Virus record (IMG/VR): IMGVR_UViG_3300025120_000380
Span: 1 to 28,684 of that record
Source: a virus
Reading direction: 5' to 3' (one strand)
DNA length: 28,684 nucleotides
In this document: positions 5,320 through 26,188 of the stretch, one piece after another
How the letters are laid out: each line of letters begins with the position of its first letter
How positions within the stretch are numbered: the stretch's first letter is position 1
The notes under the pieces: generated by a model
The model's database searches: none
What the model was told of the DNA's origin: nothing
What the model saw: the letters and a program-made list of their open reading frames with translations, nothing else
Made by a program: the position numbers and the translations under genes

Positions 5320-7740
5320 TTATTCTGTTGTGATTGACCAGCCAGCTATATTTTTCAAGAAAAGTAGTTTATCTATAACTTCGTCTCCACTTGGAGATCC
5401 ATTATCTTTCAAATTAATTATAACTCCAGATCTATTGAAACTTTCATAATTATCAAATAAATCTTTTATAATATTATTTATGGCACCTGAGCTAAGATCA
5501 TTATTTTGTAAAAGTATTAATTTAATGGATGTCAAAGATGCAAATGATCCCGAAAAATATGTTGTAAACTTATTATTGTAAAGATATATTCTTTGTATTT
5601 TTGGACATCCAGAAAAATCCGGAATTTGTCCATCAATAATATTATCGTTTGCATACAGATATTGTAATCTTGTTAAATTAGTAAATGTACCTAAATTGGT
5701 AAATTTATTATTTGACAAGAACAAATACCTCAAATTAGTTCTATCTGTAAACCCTGGTATACTTCCAGTAAAAGCATTACCTGTCAAATTGACATAGTAA
5801 ATAACCGGATTAAAGAGAAAATTAGGGAATGAACTATTAAAAAGATTTGAAGGTGCTACAATATATCTTAACTTTGAACATGCGGATAATGATGGAAAAG
5901 GTCCACCTGTTTTGCCGTAAGTCTTAAACCAAAAATAATATAGTTCAGTGTTAAATGCAAATGCAGTTGAATCTATGCTTGTAGTTTCTTTCCAATATCT
6001 AGAATCAATTAAAAGATATTTTATTTTTGGGGTAAGTTTAAAAGTATCTGCAGATATACAGTTACTTCCAGGTTGTCCTTCAATTCTAGAAAATCTTAAG
6101 TCTAAAGTACTCAACTCTTCATTTTCAAATTTTGGTAGTGTTCCATTTAGATAAGAACCATATGCTCTAAAATTTTCTAATGCTAGACATCCCTTACATT
6201 TAAAATCACCAGTTGTATCACTTGCAATAATACTAGCACCTATACCAATTGTACTAGCAAAATTATAGTTAAATTCTATGAGACTTGTTTTATTTCTTAA
6301 ATCTGGTATTGGTAGTCTTGTTAATCCAATATTAATACTTTCTATAACAGAAGACCGTATGGTAAAGGTAGAAGTAGAAAGTCCAGTGTTAGCATATAAA
6401 CCTAAAGTTTTTAACTCTGTTAACTCTTGACAATTAAGTTGACTATTACCCGCACCAACAACACCAAAAGAAGTAAAATTTTGACGAGTCATACTGTAAT
6501 TAACTACAGTATTTCCAACATTTGGTAATTGTGCCGGATTTTGATCATTATCAAGTGTATGAATAGGAGATTGAGTTCGATTAGTATTCCGATCCAAGTT
6601 AAAAGTAATTAAATTTGGAAAATCAACACCATTAAATATATTTTGTTCTATAGATCCATTAAAACATTTTCCTAATTTTAATGACGTAATAGTATCTGGT
6701 ATTTTATTTGCTATATTTTGATTTAATTTTTTTTCGTCAGAATTTTCCGTAAGGATAAACGGATTATCTTCTAGATTTAAAATTGATAATTTTGGTGTTA
6801 ATTTAGTAAAATTGGGAAATTCTGATAATTGATTTCTGTCCAATGATAAAGACGTTAAATTTAATAAAACTGTCTCAGGTATATTAGTTATTCCTGCTCC
6901 TCTTATAGAAATTGACGTAACATTATTTGGATTATAATAATACTTTACAAATCTTTCTGCTCCTACAGTTCCTCTATAATTTATTGTGTTTGCGGTTCTA
7001 TTTGTATAATCTGTCTTTTTACTTGAGTCAAGTACTTCTTCTATTCTCCATGAAGGTTTTATAGATGCAATATTAATTCTTTCAATTGTTGCATTTATAT
7101 TTCTAAAAAATCCACGAAAAACCAAAGGGATTCCTTTCATAGCAAACAAACTAACCGTTTGACCTCCAATAATACATTCAATTTTTGAAGTTGGAAGTTC
7201 GGCAGGAAATTCTTTTATCTCTGGAGTGTATGAAGTTTTTAGTCTAATTCCACTAGCATTGCCAGAAAATTGAAGTTGTCCACCAGTTAGGATACCTACT
7301 CTAGATCCATAAGAAATTGGTGATGTATCTAAAACTGGAGAATCTGTAGAATTCCAAGAACTAGATCTAGAGGTAGAAACATCTCCAAATTTTATACTTC
7401 CAGATCCATCTACAAATTTAAATCTTATAGAGTTTGCAGTTACTCTTCCATTTACTGTTAAATTTCCACGTAATAATTTATCAAATCCAGAACTATTAAC
7501 CAATATTTTTTCATACTGTTGACTATCTGTCCAAAGTCTATCTACAGTTTTGTATAAAGGTATATCTAAATTAGAAAGAGTTACAAAATCAGTTTGAGAA
7601 ACATTGACAGAAGATCCTCTTATAATATCTAAATCTTTAGGAGGAAGATTTAATGTTTCTAAACATGTATCTTTATCTCTTATATCCGCAAATAAATTAT
7701 TTACTTCTAATCCAAATAACTTGGCATTTCTAAGTGTCAT
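5320..7740 (-). CDS. Leucine-rich-repeat virion protein
   Basis: Encodes 806 residues. The N-terminal part (about 1-260) is a beta-structured virion-type region with LRGNLTVNGRVTANSIRF near residue 90 and no repeats. From about 270 to 790 there are many leucine-rich repeats, for example LTSLSLDRNQLSEFPNF, LSILNLEDNPF, NLRYLFLSNNKF, LQYLYANDNIIDGQIPDFSG and IQRIYLYNNKF. Several carry a GxIP-like segment (GSIPGF, GQIPDF), as in the plant-specific or Bspa-like LRR classes. LRR solenoids bind proteins or glycans, so host receptor binding is the likely role. It sits between two giant structural paralogues and the 342-residue gene in one operon and is preceded by an AATAAATA late box at 7765-7772. 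Confidence 0.85.
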   Translation of the reverse strand: MTLRNAKLFGLEVNNLFADIRDKDTCLETLNLPPKDLDIIRGSSVNVSQTDFVTLSNLDIPLYKTVDRLWTDSQQYEKILVNSSGFDKLLRGNLTVNGRVTANSIRFKFVDGSGSIKFGDVSTSRSSSWNSTDSPVLDTSPISYGSRVGILTGGQLQFSGNASGIRLKTSYTPEIKEFPAELPTSKIECIIGGQTVSLFAMKGIPLVFRGFFRNINATIERINIASIKPSWRIEEVLDSSKKTDYTNRTANTINYRGTVGAERFVKYYYNPNNVTSISIRGAGITNIPETVLLNLTSLSLDRNQLSEFPNFTKLTPKLSILNLEDNPFILTENSDEKKLNQNIANKIPDTITSLKLGKCFNGSIEQNIFNGVDFPNLITFNLDRNTNRTQSPIHTLDNDQNPAQLPNVGNTVVNYSMTRQNFTSFGVVGAGNSQLNCQELTELKTLGLYANTGLSTSTFTIRSSVIESINIGLTRLPIPDLRNKTSLIEFNYNFASTIGIGASIIASDTTGDFKCKGCLALENFRAYGSYLNGTLPKFENEELSTLDLRFSRIEGQPGSNCISADTFKLTPKIKYLLIDSRYWKETTSIDSTAFAFNTELYYFWFKTYGKTGGPFPSLSACSKLRYIVAPSNLFNSSFPNFLFNPVIYYVNLTGNAFTGSIPGFTDRTNLRYLFLSNNKFTNLGTFTNLTRLQYLYANDNIIDGQIPDFSGCPKIQRIYLYNNKFTTYFSGSFASLTSIKLILLQNNDLSSGAINNIIKDLFDNYESFNRSGVIINLKDNGSPSGDEVIDKLLFLKNIAGWSITTE

Positions 7741-17316: not shown

Positions 17317-17919
17317 TTACTTACAGTTATCTACAATAGATTTAATCAATTTTTTCGTTTCATCAATTGAAAAAGTTTGTAGATTAACATTATATGGTGA
17401 ACTTTGTATGATATCGGAATATAAAGTTCTTAAGTAACCATTTGCATTTAGTGTAATACTATCAGCCGATGAAATACATACTTTTCCTCCAGCAACATTA
17501 ATTTGCTCCTCTGCCCTTATTATAATATGATCATTTGCTTTAACTAAAATAGATCCATCATTTTTTTCTCCTTGTGCTTCAATGTATATATTTTTTGCTT
17601 TTAATTTTATATTTCCATTCTCAGCATTAATTACAATGTCACCATTCTCTGCGATGATAGATTTTGCAATTGCCTCACTTTCTGAATCATTTCTTCCCTT
17701 ATCCAATTCAGTTCCAACAATTTCATGAGATTGTCCAGGAACAATCTCACCTTTATTTCCACCTAAAGTATAAGTTTGGTTTTGTCCTCCTTTTAGAGAT
17801 ACGACCATATTAGTATCTAAACTTTCACCTAACTCATCTATTTCTCCGGCTGGTCCCATAAAGATGAGACCATACTCATTATCTGCAATAATTTGCTCTG
17901 CTGGATTTGGTTTTGACAT
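17317..17919 (-). CDS. Spike/needle-like protein (beta-rich, gp5 C-terminal analogue)
   Basis: Encodes 200 residues from the ATG at 17917-17919, which overlaps the TAA of the preceding gene by one base (TAATG). A longer frame from a TTG at 17931 is unlikely. The middle (about 100-165) consists of short alternating strands, for example GDIVINAENGNIKLKAKNIY, GSILVKANDHIIIRAEEQI and ADSITLNANGYL, the pattern of gp5/VgrG-type beta-prism spikes. There is no regular VxGxxxxx octad. It follows the OB-fold and hub genes in the same operon. In T4 the OB fold and the spike belong to one protein, gp5. I infer that it forms or caps the central spike. It could also be a separate membrane-puncturing accessory. 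Confidence 0.6.
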   Translation of the reverse strand: MSKPNPAEQIIADNEYGLIFMGPAGEIDELGESLDTNMVVSLKGGQNQTYTLGGNKGEIVPGQSHEIVGTELDKGRNDSESEAIAKSIIAENGDIVINAENGNIKLKAKNIYIEAQGEKNDGSILVKANDHIIIRAEEQINVAGGKVCISSADSITLNANGYLRTLYSDIIQSSPYNVNLQTFSIDETKKLIKSIVDNCK

Positions 17920-19778
17920 TAATTTACGCAATCAACAATACGAACAACACTCTTTCTTGTAAATCCTTGTTTTCTCAAATTTTCTGTGAAGACTTGTCTA
18001 CCTCTAAGAGTAGTTATAGGTTTATCAAGAACCAAACCAGAATCTTCCGGAACATCTTCCAACACTTTTGTGAAGGTTAGATTGGGTCTAATGACTACTC
18101 CTTCTCCTCCTGTATTACTATCTATAACAATATCAGGATACTCAGTAATTCCACAAATTTCTTCAGTAATTTGAATGTCAATAATTTGTCCGAATTCCGT
18201 TAAAGATACCACAGCATTTAAACCAGGAATATCTGGAGTAATTTGAATACTATCATTTTCCGTATATCCAGTTCCAGTATTTACAATTGTAAATCCATTC
18301 AAACAAACTATATAATCATCAGTAATTTTATTATCACCACCAGAACCTGATCCATCACCACCAGAACCTGATCCATCACCACCAGAACCTGATCCATCAC
18401 CACCAGAACCTGATCCATCACCACCAGAACCTGATCCATCACCACCAGAACCTGATCCATCACCACCAGAACCAGCACCAGTACCTAAACCACCATCAGT
18501 GGGACTGCTATCAACCAAAGATCCTAATAAAGTATAATCATATTCATCTTTACCATCTGCAGGAGCTGATGGTGCAATATTGGTCATTACAATATCTATA
18601 ATCTGTCCATTCGTGGAAGAATCTGGATTATCGTCAATTACTGCATAACCTGAAGTAAAGGTAGTTGCACAGTTATCTACAAAAGAAACAAATGGTGGTC
18701 TTTTATATCCAGATCCTCTATTTAATAAACTTACCCCGATAGTTCTACCAATATTATCTATAACTGCTTCTCCAACTGCACCAATACCACCTCCACCAAA
18801 AATCAAAATCTTTGGTGGTCCACATCTATACGCATCTGCATCACATTCAGTAATGCTGGATGAAGGAGATGAAGCATCTCCAAGTCTATCTCCAAATATT
18901 TCAATATTACTAATATAATCATCAACTTTTCCAACAATTCCTTCTGCTGTTGGAACTTTTGCAAAATTATTAAACGTATCTATTTGGGCAGATGATGGTC
19001 CCCCCCAAGGACCGGCTTTAAATTCTTTCAATTCTGGACAATTTGGTGCCGCACACAAGAAAGATTCAAATCCGAGAATATAATCTATAGCCTCAAAAAC
19101 ACTTCCAACAATTTTTCCAACTCCTCCAAGAATATCATTAACTTGATCTAAAATTGGTCCAAGTGTTTTATCAATAATTGCTGCCAAATTATTAATTAAT
19201 GCATTTACAAATTGTTGTGTGGCACAAAATGGAACATTAATAATTTTACCTATTAATTCATTTAAGAAATCAATAACTAAATTTAATAAATTAGAAATTA
19301 TATCTTTAAAACTGCAAAATATTTGATCTATTATTAGTTGAATTGTGGTATTTTTATATTGTTTTGCAACTGTTGGTAATATACTATCTAAAACTGAATC
19401 AAGTGCTTTTCTAATTTTATCGATTAAAAAATCTCTAAGTCTACTTATTAAACTTTTTAAAACACTAGCAATAATTTTAGAGGTACTCTTGATGAGATTA
19501 GTTATATTAGAAATTTTATTGATTGAACCATTGATGTAAAGTTCTCCATATTCTTTTATTCCTTTCAATGCAGTGAAAAACTTTTTAAGTGCTATATTAA
19601 TTTTAGATAATTCACCTTTACCACAAGGGTCAGGAAGATCTCTTTCTTTATTATAAATTTGAGAAATTCGTGCAAAATCTGAAGACTTTATATATTTTTC
19701 CCAAGCAGGAGTATCAGAAAGTGCAAATGACTTTGATGTCTGTCTAGTAGTTGGAAAAGAAGAAAATGAATCTGACAT
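17919..19778 (-). CDS. Hub-region structural protein with amphipathic helices and a Gly-Ser-Asp hinge
   Basis: Encodes 619 residues. GGGAAG lies 12 bases before the ATG at 19776-19778. Residues about 40-230 are nearly all amphipathic or hydrophobic helices (for example IIASVLKSLISRLRDFLIDK and IIDQIFCSFKDIISNLL), followed by a Cys-containing segment (FLCAAPNCPELK). Residues about 325-430 contain a GSGYKRPPFVSFVDNC beta module. A hinge of seven GSGGDGS units spans about 435-481. A second module with NTGTGYTENDSIQITP follows, and the protein ends in a basic tail. The two GxGY modules flanking the hinge look like repeated beta domains. Its place between the OB-fold and spike genes argues for a part of the hub or central spike complex. 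I do not know a T4 equivalent. Confidence 0.65.
   Translation of the reverse strand: MSDSFSSFPTTRQTSKSFALSDTPAWEKYIKSSDFARISQIYNKERDLPDPCGKGELSKINIALKKFFTALKGIKEYGELYINGSINKISNITNLIKSTSKIIASVLKSLISRLRDFLIDKIRKALDSVLDSILPTVAKQYKNTTIQLIIDQIFCSFKDIISNLLNLVIDFLNELIGKIINVPFCATQQFVNALINNLAAIIDKTLGPILDQVNDILGGVGKIVGSVFEAIDYILGFESFLCAAPNCPELKEFKAGPWGGPSSAQIDTFNNFAKVPTAEGIVGKVDDYISNIEIFGDRLGDASSPSSSITECDADAYRCGPPKILIFGGGGIGAVGEAVIDNIGRTIGVSLLNRGSGYKRPPFVSFVDNCATTFTSGYAVIDDNPDSSTNGQIIDIVMTNIAPSAPADGKDEYDYTLLGSLVDSSPTDGGLGTGAGSGGDGSGSGGDGSGSGGDGSGSGGDGSGSGGDGSGSGGDGSGSGGDNKITDDYIVCLNGFTIVNTGTGYTENDSIQITPDIPGLNAVVSLTEFGQIIDIQITEEICGITEYPDIVIDSNTGGEGVVIRPNLTFTKVLEDVPEDSGLVLDKPITTLRGRQVFTENLRKQGFTRKSVVRIVDCVN
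18334..18474 (-). repeat. 21-bp tandem repeat coding GSGGDGS
   Basis: Six identical 21-bp units (18334-18459) plus a degenerate seventh, in frame within the 619-residue gene. Each unit adds seven residues, so unit gain or loss keeps the frame and only changes the length of a flexible linker. The identity of the units points to recent expansion. Confidence 0.95.
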
Positions 19779-23287: not shown

Positions 23288-25291
23288 CTATACTATTATC
23301 CCGTAAATATCCAATGATGTTTTAATGTAAGGATTAGAAGCATCAAAACTAGAAATTGAAGGAACTCTAGTTGCTGGAGCACTTGGAACTGAAATTTCTG
23401 GAATATCAGTGTCATTATTAAAAATTGGTGGAAATTCCATCGTTTTAATATTAGTTCCTTTCTTTCTCTTAGAAGAAATCGTATTATAAATTTTTTGTGA
23501 TTTTAGATTATTAATAATTTTATTATTGTCATTATTAATAATTGTAGGCAATTCTATCGTTTTAATATTAGATACTTTCTTTCCCCCGGAAGGAATCGGA
23601 TTATAATTTTTTTGGAATTTTGTATTATCAATAATTGGTGGAAATTCCATCGTTTTAATATTAGATACTTTCTTTCCCATGGAAGGAATCGTATTATAAT
23701 TTTTTTGTTTTAGATTACCAATAATTTTATTTGTATCAGTATTATTAATAATTGTACCATCCTGTTTTGGAACGAACAATTCAGCCGTTTTCATACCAAG
23801 TTGATCACCTACAATATAAGGTTTTCCTGATTTTACGGGACCACCCATTTTCATTGTCTCTATCTCTCTAGGATCAATTATAGTTTCAATTTTTGGAATG
23901 TATGATTCTTCAACTTCTTTTTTAACTTTTAGACGTTCGGCATCTCTATTAGATCCAGTTCCAGTTCCCATTGCTCCCACATCCCCAGGTTTATCTGGAA
24001 ACTTTGTATAATCTATTTCTCTTTGTTTTTTTGTTATTTTTTCCTCCATATCATTTTTTAATTCATCCAATTGTTTCCTTTTGTCCTCAACTTCCTTAAA
24101 TATTTTTTCTTGTTCCTCAGTTCTGTTTTTTGTATTGTTTCTATTTCCTTGTCTACTTCTATCTTCAGGAACGCCTGCCGAAGTCATACCAGCATCTTTT
24201 AATTTTTGATTTAATTGATCATCTGCTTCGGCAAAATTTTTACCTCCAAGCATATTTTCTCTAATCTTTTTAATAGCCCATTCTCCTGCCTTATAAATCA
24301 GAACACCGGCACCAATTGCAAGCAATGCTTTGAGTGTAAGTGGATTTACAAGAAAACCTATTAGTAAAGGAACTGCCTTTGCAATTAATGCAATGAGTAT
24401 CTTCAAAGGACCCAATACTGTAAGAATACTACTAACAACTGGCAAAAAAGTAAACGCACCAACTGCTACTGCCATCCATTTCCAATTGTCTTTTATCCAA
24501 CCAAACCACCCTTTCACTGTCTCTACATTTTTTGGAGATTTTAACCATTCAAAGACACCATTGACTGCAATACCTGTTCCCAGAGTGAGTAAGAAATCAG
24601 TAATTTTATCGAAAATATTTTTGATTGGTGATAGCATTTTATCTGCTACTTTTTTAACACCTATACCGATTGATTTACCTGTTTTTTCAAGTAAATTTTC
24701 CTCAGTCTTTAACTTTTTCTTTGATTTTTTAATACCTTCTCTTCTCTCTGCATCTAAAGAATCTTTAGTTTCTTTTGATATAGATTTCACTAACTGTTTT
24801 TGTATGTCTATCAGAAGTTTATTTGTTTCAACTAATGTTTTATAAAGATTATCTTGATCACTTCCAGGAATTTTCTGTCCTATTTTACTTTGTTGATTTT
24901 TTATTATATTTTTTATTATTGATATTTTTTTATCTTGCCCTACCTTATCCTTCACCAAAGAATTGATTGATATTTTTTTATCTTGCCCTACCTTATCCTT
25001 CACCAAAGAATTGATTGATATTCTATTCTTTCTTACGATTTTTGCAAGAGTTCCTATTTTAGAAGTTCCTCCCTGCCCTACTTTTCCAAGAGAAAAATTA
25101 TTATTATTAAAAATACTCTTAATGTTAGTAGATTTTAGTTTAGGAGTATTTTTTTGTTCTATTCCAATCGTTCTTTTTTCTGCTTTTCTCTGCTGTTTTT
25201 CGGATTCTTTTTTATCAATAGAATCTTTCACCTCATCAACAGAAGGTCCACCTCTTCTTCTTTTTGCTGGTCTACCTCTTTTATAATCCAT
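23288..25291 (-). CDS. Tape-measure-like tail protein (gp29 analogue candidate)
   Basis: Encodes 667 residues. The very basic N-terminus and Lys-rich helices (1-215) are followed by a long hydrophobic stretch at about 271-333 (FLPVVSSILTVLGPL, LLIGFLVNPLTLKALLAIGA), then a coiled coil near 390-425. At 483-517 it has GGPVKSGKPYIVGDQLGM followed by AELFVPKQDGTI. This matches the 'GGPV-x-AG-x-PY-x-VGE ... ELFVP' motif seen near the C-terminus of many tape-measure proteins. It directly follows the gp26/gp51 chaperone-like pair, as tape-measure genes follow G/T in lambda. T4 gp29 is 590 residues, a comparable length. The start ATG lies 11 bases inside the end of the gp51-like ORF. Two repeats are present: a 16-residue duplication at 91-122 and a triple imperfect repeat at about 531-625. 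Confidence 0.75.
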   Translation of the reverse strand: MDYKRGRPAKRRRGGPSVDEVKDSIDKKESEKQQRKAEKRTIGIEQKNTPKLKSTNIKSIFNNNNFSLGKVGQGGTSKIGTLAKIVRKNRISINSLVKDKVGQDKKISINSLVKDKVGQDKKISIIKNIIKNQQSKIGQKIPGSDQDNLYKTLVETNKLLIDIQKQLVKSISKETKDSLDAERREGIKKSKKKLKTEENLLEKTGKSIGIGVKKVADKMLSPIKNIFDKITDFLLTLGTGIAVNGVFEWLKSPKNVETVKGWFGWIKDNWKWMAVAVGAFTFLPVVSSILTVLGPLKILIALIAKAVPLLIGFLVNPLTLKALLAIGAGVLIYKAGEWAIKKIRENMLGGKNFAEADDQLNQKLKDAGMTSAGVPEDRSRQGNRNNTKNRTEEQEKIFKEVEDKRKQLDELKNDMEEKITKKQREIDYTKFPDKPGDVGAMGTGTGSNRDAERLKVKKEVEESYIPKIETIIDPREIETMKMGGPVKSGKPYIVGDQLGMKTAELFVPKQDGTIINNTDTNKIIGNLKQKNYNTIPSMGKKVSNIKTMEFPPIIDNTKFQKNYNPIPSGGKKVSNIKTIELPTIINNDNNKIINNLKSQKIYNTISSKRKKGTNIKTMEFPPIFNNDTDIPEISVPSAPATRVPSISSFDASNPYIKTSLDIYGIIV
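23400..23700 (-). repeat. Three imperfect repeats in the C-terminus of the tape-measure-like gene
   Basis: Three copies coding YNTIPSMGKKVSNIKTMEF, YNPIPSGGKKVSNIKTIEL and YNTISSKRKKGTNIKTMEF, each followed by PPII/PTII/PPIF and an Asn-rich spacer of unequal length. At the DNA level, long blocks around 'ccatcgttttaatatta' are identical, suggesting fairly recent duplication. Confidence 0.88.
24921..25016 (-). repeat. 48-bp tandem duplication in the tape-measure-like gene
   Basis: Two adjacent 48-bp copies (24921-24968 and 24969-25016) that appear identical. They encode a repeated 16-residue unit, ISINSLVKDKVGQDKK (residues 91-106 and 107-122). The frame is kept. Confidence 0.93.
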
Positions 25292-25460
25292 TCTGTTGCT
25301 GTTGTTTTAGATTTTCTTCTTCGATATATTGTTGGAGAAGAGCTACATATATATCCCTTTCCCAAGGAATCATATCTTCTAACTCTGTTAATGAATATTT
25401 ATGATGTTGTATTAATGCAAAGTTAATTTTATAGTATGATTCAAGAGTTTCGTGAACCAT
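25281..25460 (-). CDS. 51: gp51-like small tail-assembly protein, probably expressed as a frameshift extension of gp26
   Basis: Encodes 59 residues beginning MVHETLESYYKINFALIQ, with the core LTELEDMIPWERDIYVALLQ and the tail YIEEENLKQQQQNGL. This 'L-x-x-M-x-P-W-E-R-x-x-Y' pattern resembles short proteins annotated as gp51 (hub assembly catalyst) next to gp26 in marine T4-like phages, and the C-terminal parts of tail-assembly chaperone fusions. T4 gp51 is much longer (about 250), so the symbol is tentative. Its ATG has only AGG one base upstream, too close to act as a ribosome site. The ATG also lies inside the stem at 25434-25462. The frame is continuous with the -1 frame of gp26, so the main product may be a gp26-gp51 fusion of about 302 residues. 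It overlaps the tape-measure-like gene by 11 bases. Confidence 0.75.
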   Translation of the reverse strand: MVHETLESYYKINFALIQHHKYSLTELEDMIPWERDIYVALLQQYIEEENLKQQQQNGL

Positions 25461-25475
25461 ACCTAAGCGAAAAAA
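25434..25475 (-). promoter_or_regulatory. Putative programmed -1 ribosomal frameshift element at the gp26/gp51 junction
   Basis: On the minus strand, T TTT TTC (25475-25469) is a perfect X XXY YYZ slippery heptamer in the gp26 frame (codons for residues 239-240). The zero-frame TAG follows at 25465-25463. Six bases after the heptamer begins a 10-bp stem: GTATGGTTCA (25462-25453) pairs with TGAATCATAC (25443-25434), with one G-U pair and a nine-base loop. The -1 frame continues CGC TTA GGT ATG into the gp51-like ORF with no stop. Confidence 0.75.
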
Positions 25476-26188
25476 CCTGCTAACCCTTCAATTACAACCT
25501 CAGATTCTACTCCAGTCTTCGGATTCTTTATCATTACTTTATGTGAAAGTTTTGGCATTGTAGTAAAGAATGTTTCAATTTCTTTAAATTGCTTTGTATT
25601 CAATTGTTCAATAAATTCATCAAGTTCTTCTTTAGTATATTCAGATGCCTGCCAACTTGTTTCTTTATCATAGATCATTTCAACAGAAGAAGAAATCATT
25701 GAAAGTGATTCTGATAAATTATTTGCTGATCCACCATCTGTTTCAAAATTATTTTCAACAAACTGTTCTAAAGATGGATACTTAAGTTTCATTGAAAGAT
25801 CATCATCAATTTTAATGATATTCTTATGACCTTTAGTTTTTTGAACTTTAATCCTGTCAATATCAATAGTAATATCTACGGTTGTTTCCATATCATCAGG
25901 ACATATAACAGAAATGTCTACAGTTTCACCGACAGACTTAGCACGAACATTTAAAAACAAATATTCAATATCAAAAGTTGCAAGAGATTCTACTTTTACA
26001 TCTTTAGTAATAATACAATCAGAGATAATTTGAACAACTGCGTTCGTAATCTCTTTCATATTTTCAGTTTCCATTGCCATAATAAGAATCTTTTCTTCTC
26101 TGACAAGAAAAGGTCTATACTTAATCTTTTTGTTTGTAGATGGCAGAGTCAACTCATATGTCGGAACACTAATCTTAGGTAATGTCAT
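25463..26188 (-). CDS. 26: Baseplate hub / tail-assembly protein gp26
   Basis: Encodes 241 residues (T4 gp26 is 208). The N-terminus MTLPKISVPTYELTLPSTNK, followed by KYRPFLVREEKILIMAMETE and VVQIISDCI, is the typical start of the T4-type gp26 baseplate family. The rest is acidic and helical, ending VVIEGLAGFFA. T4 gp26 is needed to build the central hub. By position here (gp26, short ORF, tape-measure-like gene) it corresponds to the G chaperone of lambda-type tails, which coats the tape-measure protein. The last codons are the slippery site of the putative -1 frameshift, so two products, 241 and about 302 residues, are expected. A late box (AATAAATA at 26215-26222) precedes it. Confidence 0.82.
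   Translation of the reverse strand: MTLPKISVPTYELTLPSTNKKIKYRPFLVREEKILIMAMETENMKEITNAVVQIISDCIITKDVKVESLATFDIEYLFLNVRAKSVGETVDISVICPDDMETTVDITIDIDRIKVQKTKGHKNIIKIDDDLSMKLKYPSLEQFVENNFETDGGSANNLSESLSMISSSVEMIYDKETSWQASEYTKEELDEFIEQLNTKQFKEIETFFTTMPKLSHKVMIKNPKTGVESEVVIEGLAGFFA

Follow-up and report, generated by a model that had tools for sequence, protein, structure and literature searches.

The window analysed here is a 28,684-nucleotide stretch of viral DNA (IMG/VR record IMGVR_UViG_3300025120_000380, positions 1 to 28,684) whose minus strand carries gp26 followed by a small gp51-like open reading frame (ORF). We conclude that a programmed -1 frameshift at the end of gp26 very probably yields two proteins, a short gp26 and a long gp26-gp51 fusion. 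They are best read as a pair of tail assembly chaperones (TACs) resembling lambda G and G-T, because the slippery heptamer, its phase and the -1 frame domain are conserved, gp26 has a predicted chaperone fold, and gp51 of phage T4 is a fusion of the same two parts.

The predicted slip site and the frames it would join

At the end of gp26 the minus strand reads GGG TTA GCA GGT TTT TTC GCT TAG, followed by GTATGGTTCA CGAAACTCT TGAATCATAC. A first-pass annotation, made from the letters alone, had proposed a -1 slip at this point, and direct reading agrees with its figures throughout: the heptamer T_TTT_TTC lies in phase (25475..25469), a 10-bp stem with one G-U pair and a nine-base loop starts six bases after it (25462..25434), and the slipped frame, TTT TTT CGC TTA GGT ATG (FF-R-L-G-M), runs into a 59-residue ORF (25460..25281) whose ATG at 25460 falls inside the stem, giving a fusion of 240+3+59 = 302 residues. 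The features are as follows.

25463..26188, minus strand: gp26, the zero-frame short product of 241 amino acids, matching PF12322 (E 5.5e-71) and phrog_150 (E 9.8e-77); read as the short chaperone (TAC-N, lambda G-like)
25469..25475, minus strand: slippery heptamer T_TTT_TTC in the gp26 frame, supported by sequence reading, conservation and a synonymous-site test
25463..25465, minus strand: zero-frame stop of gp26, TAG, one codon past the heptamer
25434..25462, minus strand: putative stimulatory hairpin, with stem arms 25462-25453 and 25443-25434, containing the ATG at 25460
25281..25469, minus strand: -1 frame extension, the gp51 domain, 62 amino acids from RLGMVHE, matching phrog_634 (E 1.6e-28); read as TAC-C, lambda T-like
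25281..26188, minus strand: predicted frameshift product gp26-gp51, 302 amino acids, with the -1 frame open and the domain order of T4 gp51; read as TAC-NC, lambda G-T-like
23288..25291, minus strand: next gene, 667 amino acids, overlapping the end of the gp51 domain; likely the tape measure protein, judging by its position and its being a variable long ORF

The PF12322 match of gp26, the single one in the record, scores 239 bits against a curated cut-off of 24.5, and the phrog_634 family to which the 59-residue ORF belongs is labelled 'baseplate hub assembly catalyst'.

Conservation of the heptamer and its reading phase

Loci of gp26 were gathered from viral contigs and annotated phages, excluding T4 itself; 338 have a complete gp26 end, and clustering at 80% identity (NR80) places them in 88 lineages. 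The sample covers marine cyanophages and phages of Vibrio, Aeromonas, Stenotrophomonas, Sinorhizobium, Agrobacterium and Methylophilales, as well as one Citrobacter phage; a query with vibriophage D491s found no relatives among the viral contigs. The first-pass annotation had proposed aligning the gp26/gp51 junction across relatives, and this alignment shows both heptamer and phase kept in T4-like phages, with an in-phase T_TTT_TTN close to the gp26 stop in 336/338 loci and 86/88 lineages (among the 336 loci, TTTTTTC 260, TTTTTTT 39, TTTTTTA 35 and TTTTTTG 2). Since in-frame TTTTTTN occurs elsewhere in gp26 at 0.00074 per position, its presence near the stop is far above chance. Exactly one codon separates heptamer and stop in 68 of the 86 lineages. 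The -1 frame stays open for 158-248 bases past the gp26 stop at all loci, and a hidden Markov model (HMM) of the gp51 domain matches that frame in 88/88 lineages and no other frame. Among the findings that the same annotation had named as speaking against a frameshift, a gp51 out of reach of -1 slippage was encountered nowhere, and relatives lacking the heptamer are limited to two Ackermannviridae-type phages, considered below.

The conservation exceeds what the encoded protein would demand. The residue before the two phenylalanines varies over seven (S, N, D, A, T, G, H), and its codon ends in T in every lineage; the first phenylalanine codon is TTT without exception across the 86 lineages, the mean expected frequencies being 0.59 for the T-ending codon and 0.65 for TTT. 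Taken as independent, these lineages give a synonymous-site constraint on the heptamer of log10P about -45, although the true constraint is less extreme because they are related. The T-run also begins at the third codon position in 86/86 lineages, a placement shared by only 8 of the 37 runs of six or more T elsewhere in gp26.

The downstream hairpin

Folding of the 48 bases after the heptamer was compared with that of synonymous shuffles, which preserve the gp51 protein. The stem of the window has a minimum free energy of -12.9, against -4.8 for its shuffles (z -3.4), and across the 86 lineages the mean z is -1.57 (p 8e-11, an optimistic value given that the lineages are related), compared with a non-significant -0.26 in a control stretch 60 bases further on. 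Within the clade of the window, pairing in the 10-bp stem holds in 92.6% of cells, against 30-35% for slid controls, and compensatory changes occur at three stem pairs in nine double-change cells, a number that 0/500 shuffles reach. Locus L033 has a longer hairpin loop whose extra bases preserve the -1 frame, and the stem still forms.

The covariation for which the first-pass annotation had proposed a test is thus seen in the window's own clade and does not extend family-wide. A single hairpin shared by the whole family was rejected, given that the stem of the window holds only within its clade; some other clades carry unrelated hairpins at similar spacing, and the P-HM1-like group showed no covariation at the register tested. 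An upstream Shine-Dalgarno stimulator gave a weak signal (z -0.67, p 1e-5) and is not claimed. On the strength of the folding and covariation we regard the hairpin as a putative stimulator of slippage.

gp26 as a probable chaperone and the T4 arrangement

Searching the gp26 sequence against solved structures returned chance-level matches only, so a structural fold comparison was needed. The AlphaFold2 model of gp26 has a mean pLDDT (predicted local distance difference test) of 92.9. Foldseek alone gave E near 1, which is not significant; a second-look structural alignment matched residues 1-92 to 3fgx (Z 8.2, root-mean-square deviation (rmsd) 4.1, 86 aligned), the HK97 protein 2ob9 (Z 7.7, rmsd 3.8, 84 aligned) and YqbN, 3klu (Z 7.3, rmsd 4.0, 86 aligned), of which we take 3fgx and YqbN to be phage or prophage TACs. 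The entry 2ob9 is called a tail assembly chaperone in its own structure title. On this model, the N-terminal domain of gp26 is predicted to match the solved TACs HK97, YqbN and rbstp2171. The fourth match, 5ir0, scores Z 5.4, and the following chain only Z 2.9.

As a separate observation, 5ir0 is ORF19 of a phage-inducible chromosomal island (PICI)-like element of Vibrio cholerae, and a tail-chaperone-like protein from such a satellite could interfere with the tails of phages.

In T4, genes 26 and 51 are divergent and lie on opposite strands, and the end of gene 26 has no frameshift site. Residues 1-201 of T4 gp51 match PF12322 (E 3.9e-52), the scores being 216 bits for T4 gp26 and 178 bits for T4 gp51, while its C-terminus is 35% identical over 37 residues to the small ORF of the window, and residues 207-245 match a profile of the gp51 domain from which T4 was left out (19 bits). 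T4 gp51 thus proves to be a paralogue of gp26 with the gp51 C-terminal domain permanently attached, and T4 carries this domain solely in that fused state. Being composed of PF12322 plus the gp51 domain, T4 gp51 is the fixed equivalent of the predicted gp26-gp51 product and T4 gp26 that of the short product, so that T4 has two genes in place of a frameshift. Matches spanning most of T4 gp51 were found in 1,334 phage records, mainly from enterobacterial and Acinetobacter phages, and 44RR shares the T4 arrangement. Probably, most T4-like phages beyond the T4 clade make no gp51 as a protein by itself. What is called the 'hub assembly catalyst' would be only the frameshift-encoded C-terminal part of a long chaperone, made from an ancestral, often hairpin-assisted T_TTT_TTN, and gene 51 as found in T4 and its near kin would have arisen later, by a duplication that fixed the frameshift product as a gene in its own right.

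The T4 arrangement has a tandem counterpart in Klebsiella phage CP-p-KP-21068 (locus L350, 2501-3792), where a full-length gp51-like gene comes first and a gp26-like gene follows directly, both on one strand.

The T4 literature describes gp26 and gp51 as hub-assembly factors, and they could be that only, with a frameshift unrelated to tape measure chaperoning. We consider this very unlikely, as residues 1-92 of gp26 share the fold of solved TACs and the short/long architecture, placed before a long tape-measure-like gene, resembles that of lambda; judging from its title and from papers that cite it, the study of Vladimirov et al. 2022 reached the same TAC assignment. As for the downstream ORF itself, it lies directly after gp26-gp51, is long and variable among the relatives checked, and has no Pfam or PHROG tape measure match, for which reason we infer its identity only from context.

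gp51 start codons and annotation

In 39/88 lineages the -1 frame holds no ATG, GTG or TTG from the heptamer to 32 bases past the stop, nor in the upstream open overlap. Separate initiation of gp51 cannot explain these lineages and is ruled out as a general explanation. They form a stronger sequence argument than the one first advanced, that the gp51 ORF has no usable ribosome site: Shine-Dalgarno matches upstream of other genes of the window (gp26, gp27 and the next gene) are no better, and we have therefore dropped that point as evidence.

The reading as a short and a long chaperone also means that many T4-like genomes beyond the T4 clade list gp51 as a gene of its own, assign it a doubtful start or are reported to lack it. 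In P-HM1, Syn9 and Melnitz-3 the annotated start falls within the conserved domain; in S-WAM2, avDM6 and Aeh1 the gene is omitted. Sullivan et al. 2010 (PMC3037559) named Aeh1 as the sole T4-like genome of their set without gp51. Aeh1 does have gp51: it follows GAT TTT TTC GAC TGA in the -1 frame, reads RLTLVNDSVYDLF and has no ATG close to where it begins. Annotation keyed to start codons misses gp51 where no usual start lies near its beginning, and this explains the gene reported missing in Aeh1. The two overlooked genes are the following.

Locus L348 (Aeh1), 3238 onward: gp51 following T_TTT_TTC in the -1 frame, with no usual start codon nearby
Locus L095 (avDM6), 3730 onward: gp51 following T_TTT_TTC in the -1 frame, with no usual start codon nearby

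These lineages bear directly on the view that gp51 is made by itself as a small protein, its translation starting by re-initiation or coupling from an ATG two bases past the gp26 stop (TAGGTATG), with the T-run merely encoding two phenylalanines. Such an ATG exists at 25460 in the window, an ATG lies near the gp26 stop in 36/88 lineages, and database annotators handle gp51 as a separate gene. Where no start codon is available, however, annotators begin inside the domain or omit the gene; this view also leaves the T-ending preceding codon and the fixed phase unexplained, and T4 carries the domain only as a fusion, all of which makes it very unlikely. Slippage by RNA polymerase instead of the ribosome, which a homopolymeric T6-T8 run and downstream RNA structure could also favour, is extremely improbable, since in 75/86 lineages the run comprises just 6 T, few for slippage by a polymerase, and the codon phase of tandem -1 slippage, kept in 86/86, is something polymerase slippage would not need.

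Proposed mechanism

Several observations weigh against a frameshift-made chaperone pair. Besides the ATG codons just described, the fold Z-scores of 7-8 are middling; about 40% of lineages have no clear downstream hairpin, so this element is not universal; and the two Ackermannviridae-type Vibrio phages lack T_TTT_TTN (they have GTTTTTC and CTTTTTG) and show a TAATG overlap instead. The conserved heptamer and phase, the gp26 fold match and the T4 gp51 fusion nevertheless favour the proposal of the first-pass annotation that gp26 and gp26-gp51 are tail assembly chaperones.

The analysis shows the sequence and its phase, their conservation, a signal of RNA structure, the domain homologies and a predicted fold; that slippage occurs, how efficient it is and which product binds what, we infer. 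Most ribosomes would terminate at the gp26 stop and release the short chaperone. A minority, aided by the hairpin six bases downstream, would move back by one base on T_TTT_TTC, bypass the stop by reading on in the -1 frame and extend the chain by the 62-residue gp51 domain, producing the 302-residue long form. By analogy with lambda G, the short form may coat the tape measure protein encoded next; by analogy with lambda G-T, the long form may link that protein to the tail tube or hub.

Other features of the window

The gene after gp51 contains a 48-base tandem repeat (24920-25032, KISINSLVKDKVGQDK twice), which is either real or an assembly effect. A run of GGDGSGS repeats (18308-18478) lies inside a 619-residue ORF (19778..17919), and an 806-residue minus-strand ORF with leucine-rich-repeat-like sequence (5320-7740) is found in the tail gene region.

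Comparison with known systems

The interpretation is right, and the principle behind it has been in print since 2022. According to citations of their paper (Virology 566:9-15) in PMC10885494 and PMC12846349, Vladimirov, Gautam and Davidson identified the TACs of T4-like phages, with shared TAC-N/TAC-NC and poly-T slippery sites and with separate genes in some phages; the link between T4 hub factors and the lambda system, presented as new in the first-pass annotation, is on this account theirs, and the proposed gp26-gp51 frameshift adds to a known kind. PRFect (PMC10885494) cites them for the use of separate short and fused genes in place of frameshifting by some T4-like phages; in PMC12846349, on phage Adele, they are the source given for poly-T slippery signals in T4-like TAC-N genes. 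In the literature searched, which includes the 2022 study only through its citations, we found no hairpin covariation, no start-less gp51 and no survey of this breadth. The covarying hairpin and the start-less lineages offer a clean test set for frameshift assays.

As in lambda G/G-T, the proposed slip falls close to the 3' end of the gene for a short chaperone, ahead of the likely tape measure gene, and would give a short and an extended product. The lambda heptamer is G_GGA_AAG, whereas that of gp26 is T_TTT_TTC; gp26 is also larger than gpG, and its stop usually comes one codon past the slip site. Frameshifts of this kind in lambda and related phage tails are described in Levin 1993 and Xu 2013, 2014, and reviewed in PMC5009743. 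The TACs of Vandenendeviridae and Andersonviridae (phage Adele, PMC12846349) likewise have a -1 frameshift at a conserved poly-T near the TAC-N end, with the -1 frame open group-wide; they differ in the motif, GTTTTT, and belong to other phage families.

The two Ackermannviridae-type phages (SD25, locus L092, and K444, locus L093) encode gp26 with a gp51-like domain in the -1 frame, and their GTTTTTC and CTTTTTG recall the Adele motif.

Reading the T4-like proteins as short and long chaperones assigns them a role common to lambda-type tails. T4 itself has the same pair, gp26 as the short form and gp51 as a gp26-like domain with the gp51 C-terminal domain, and differs in encoding them as two divergent genes.
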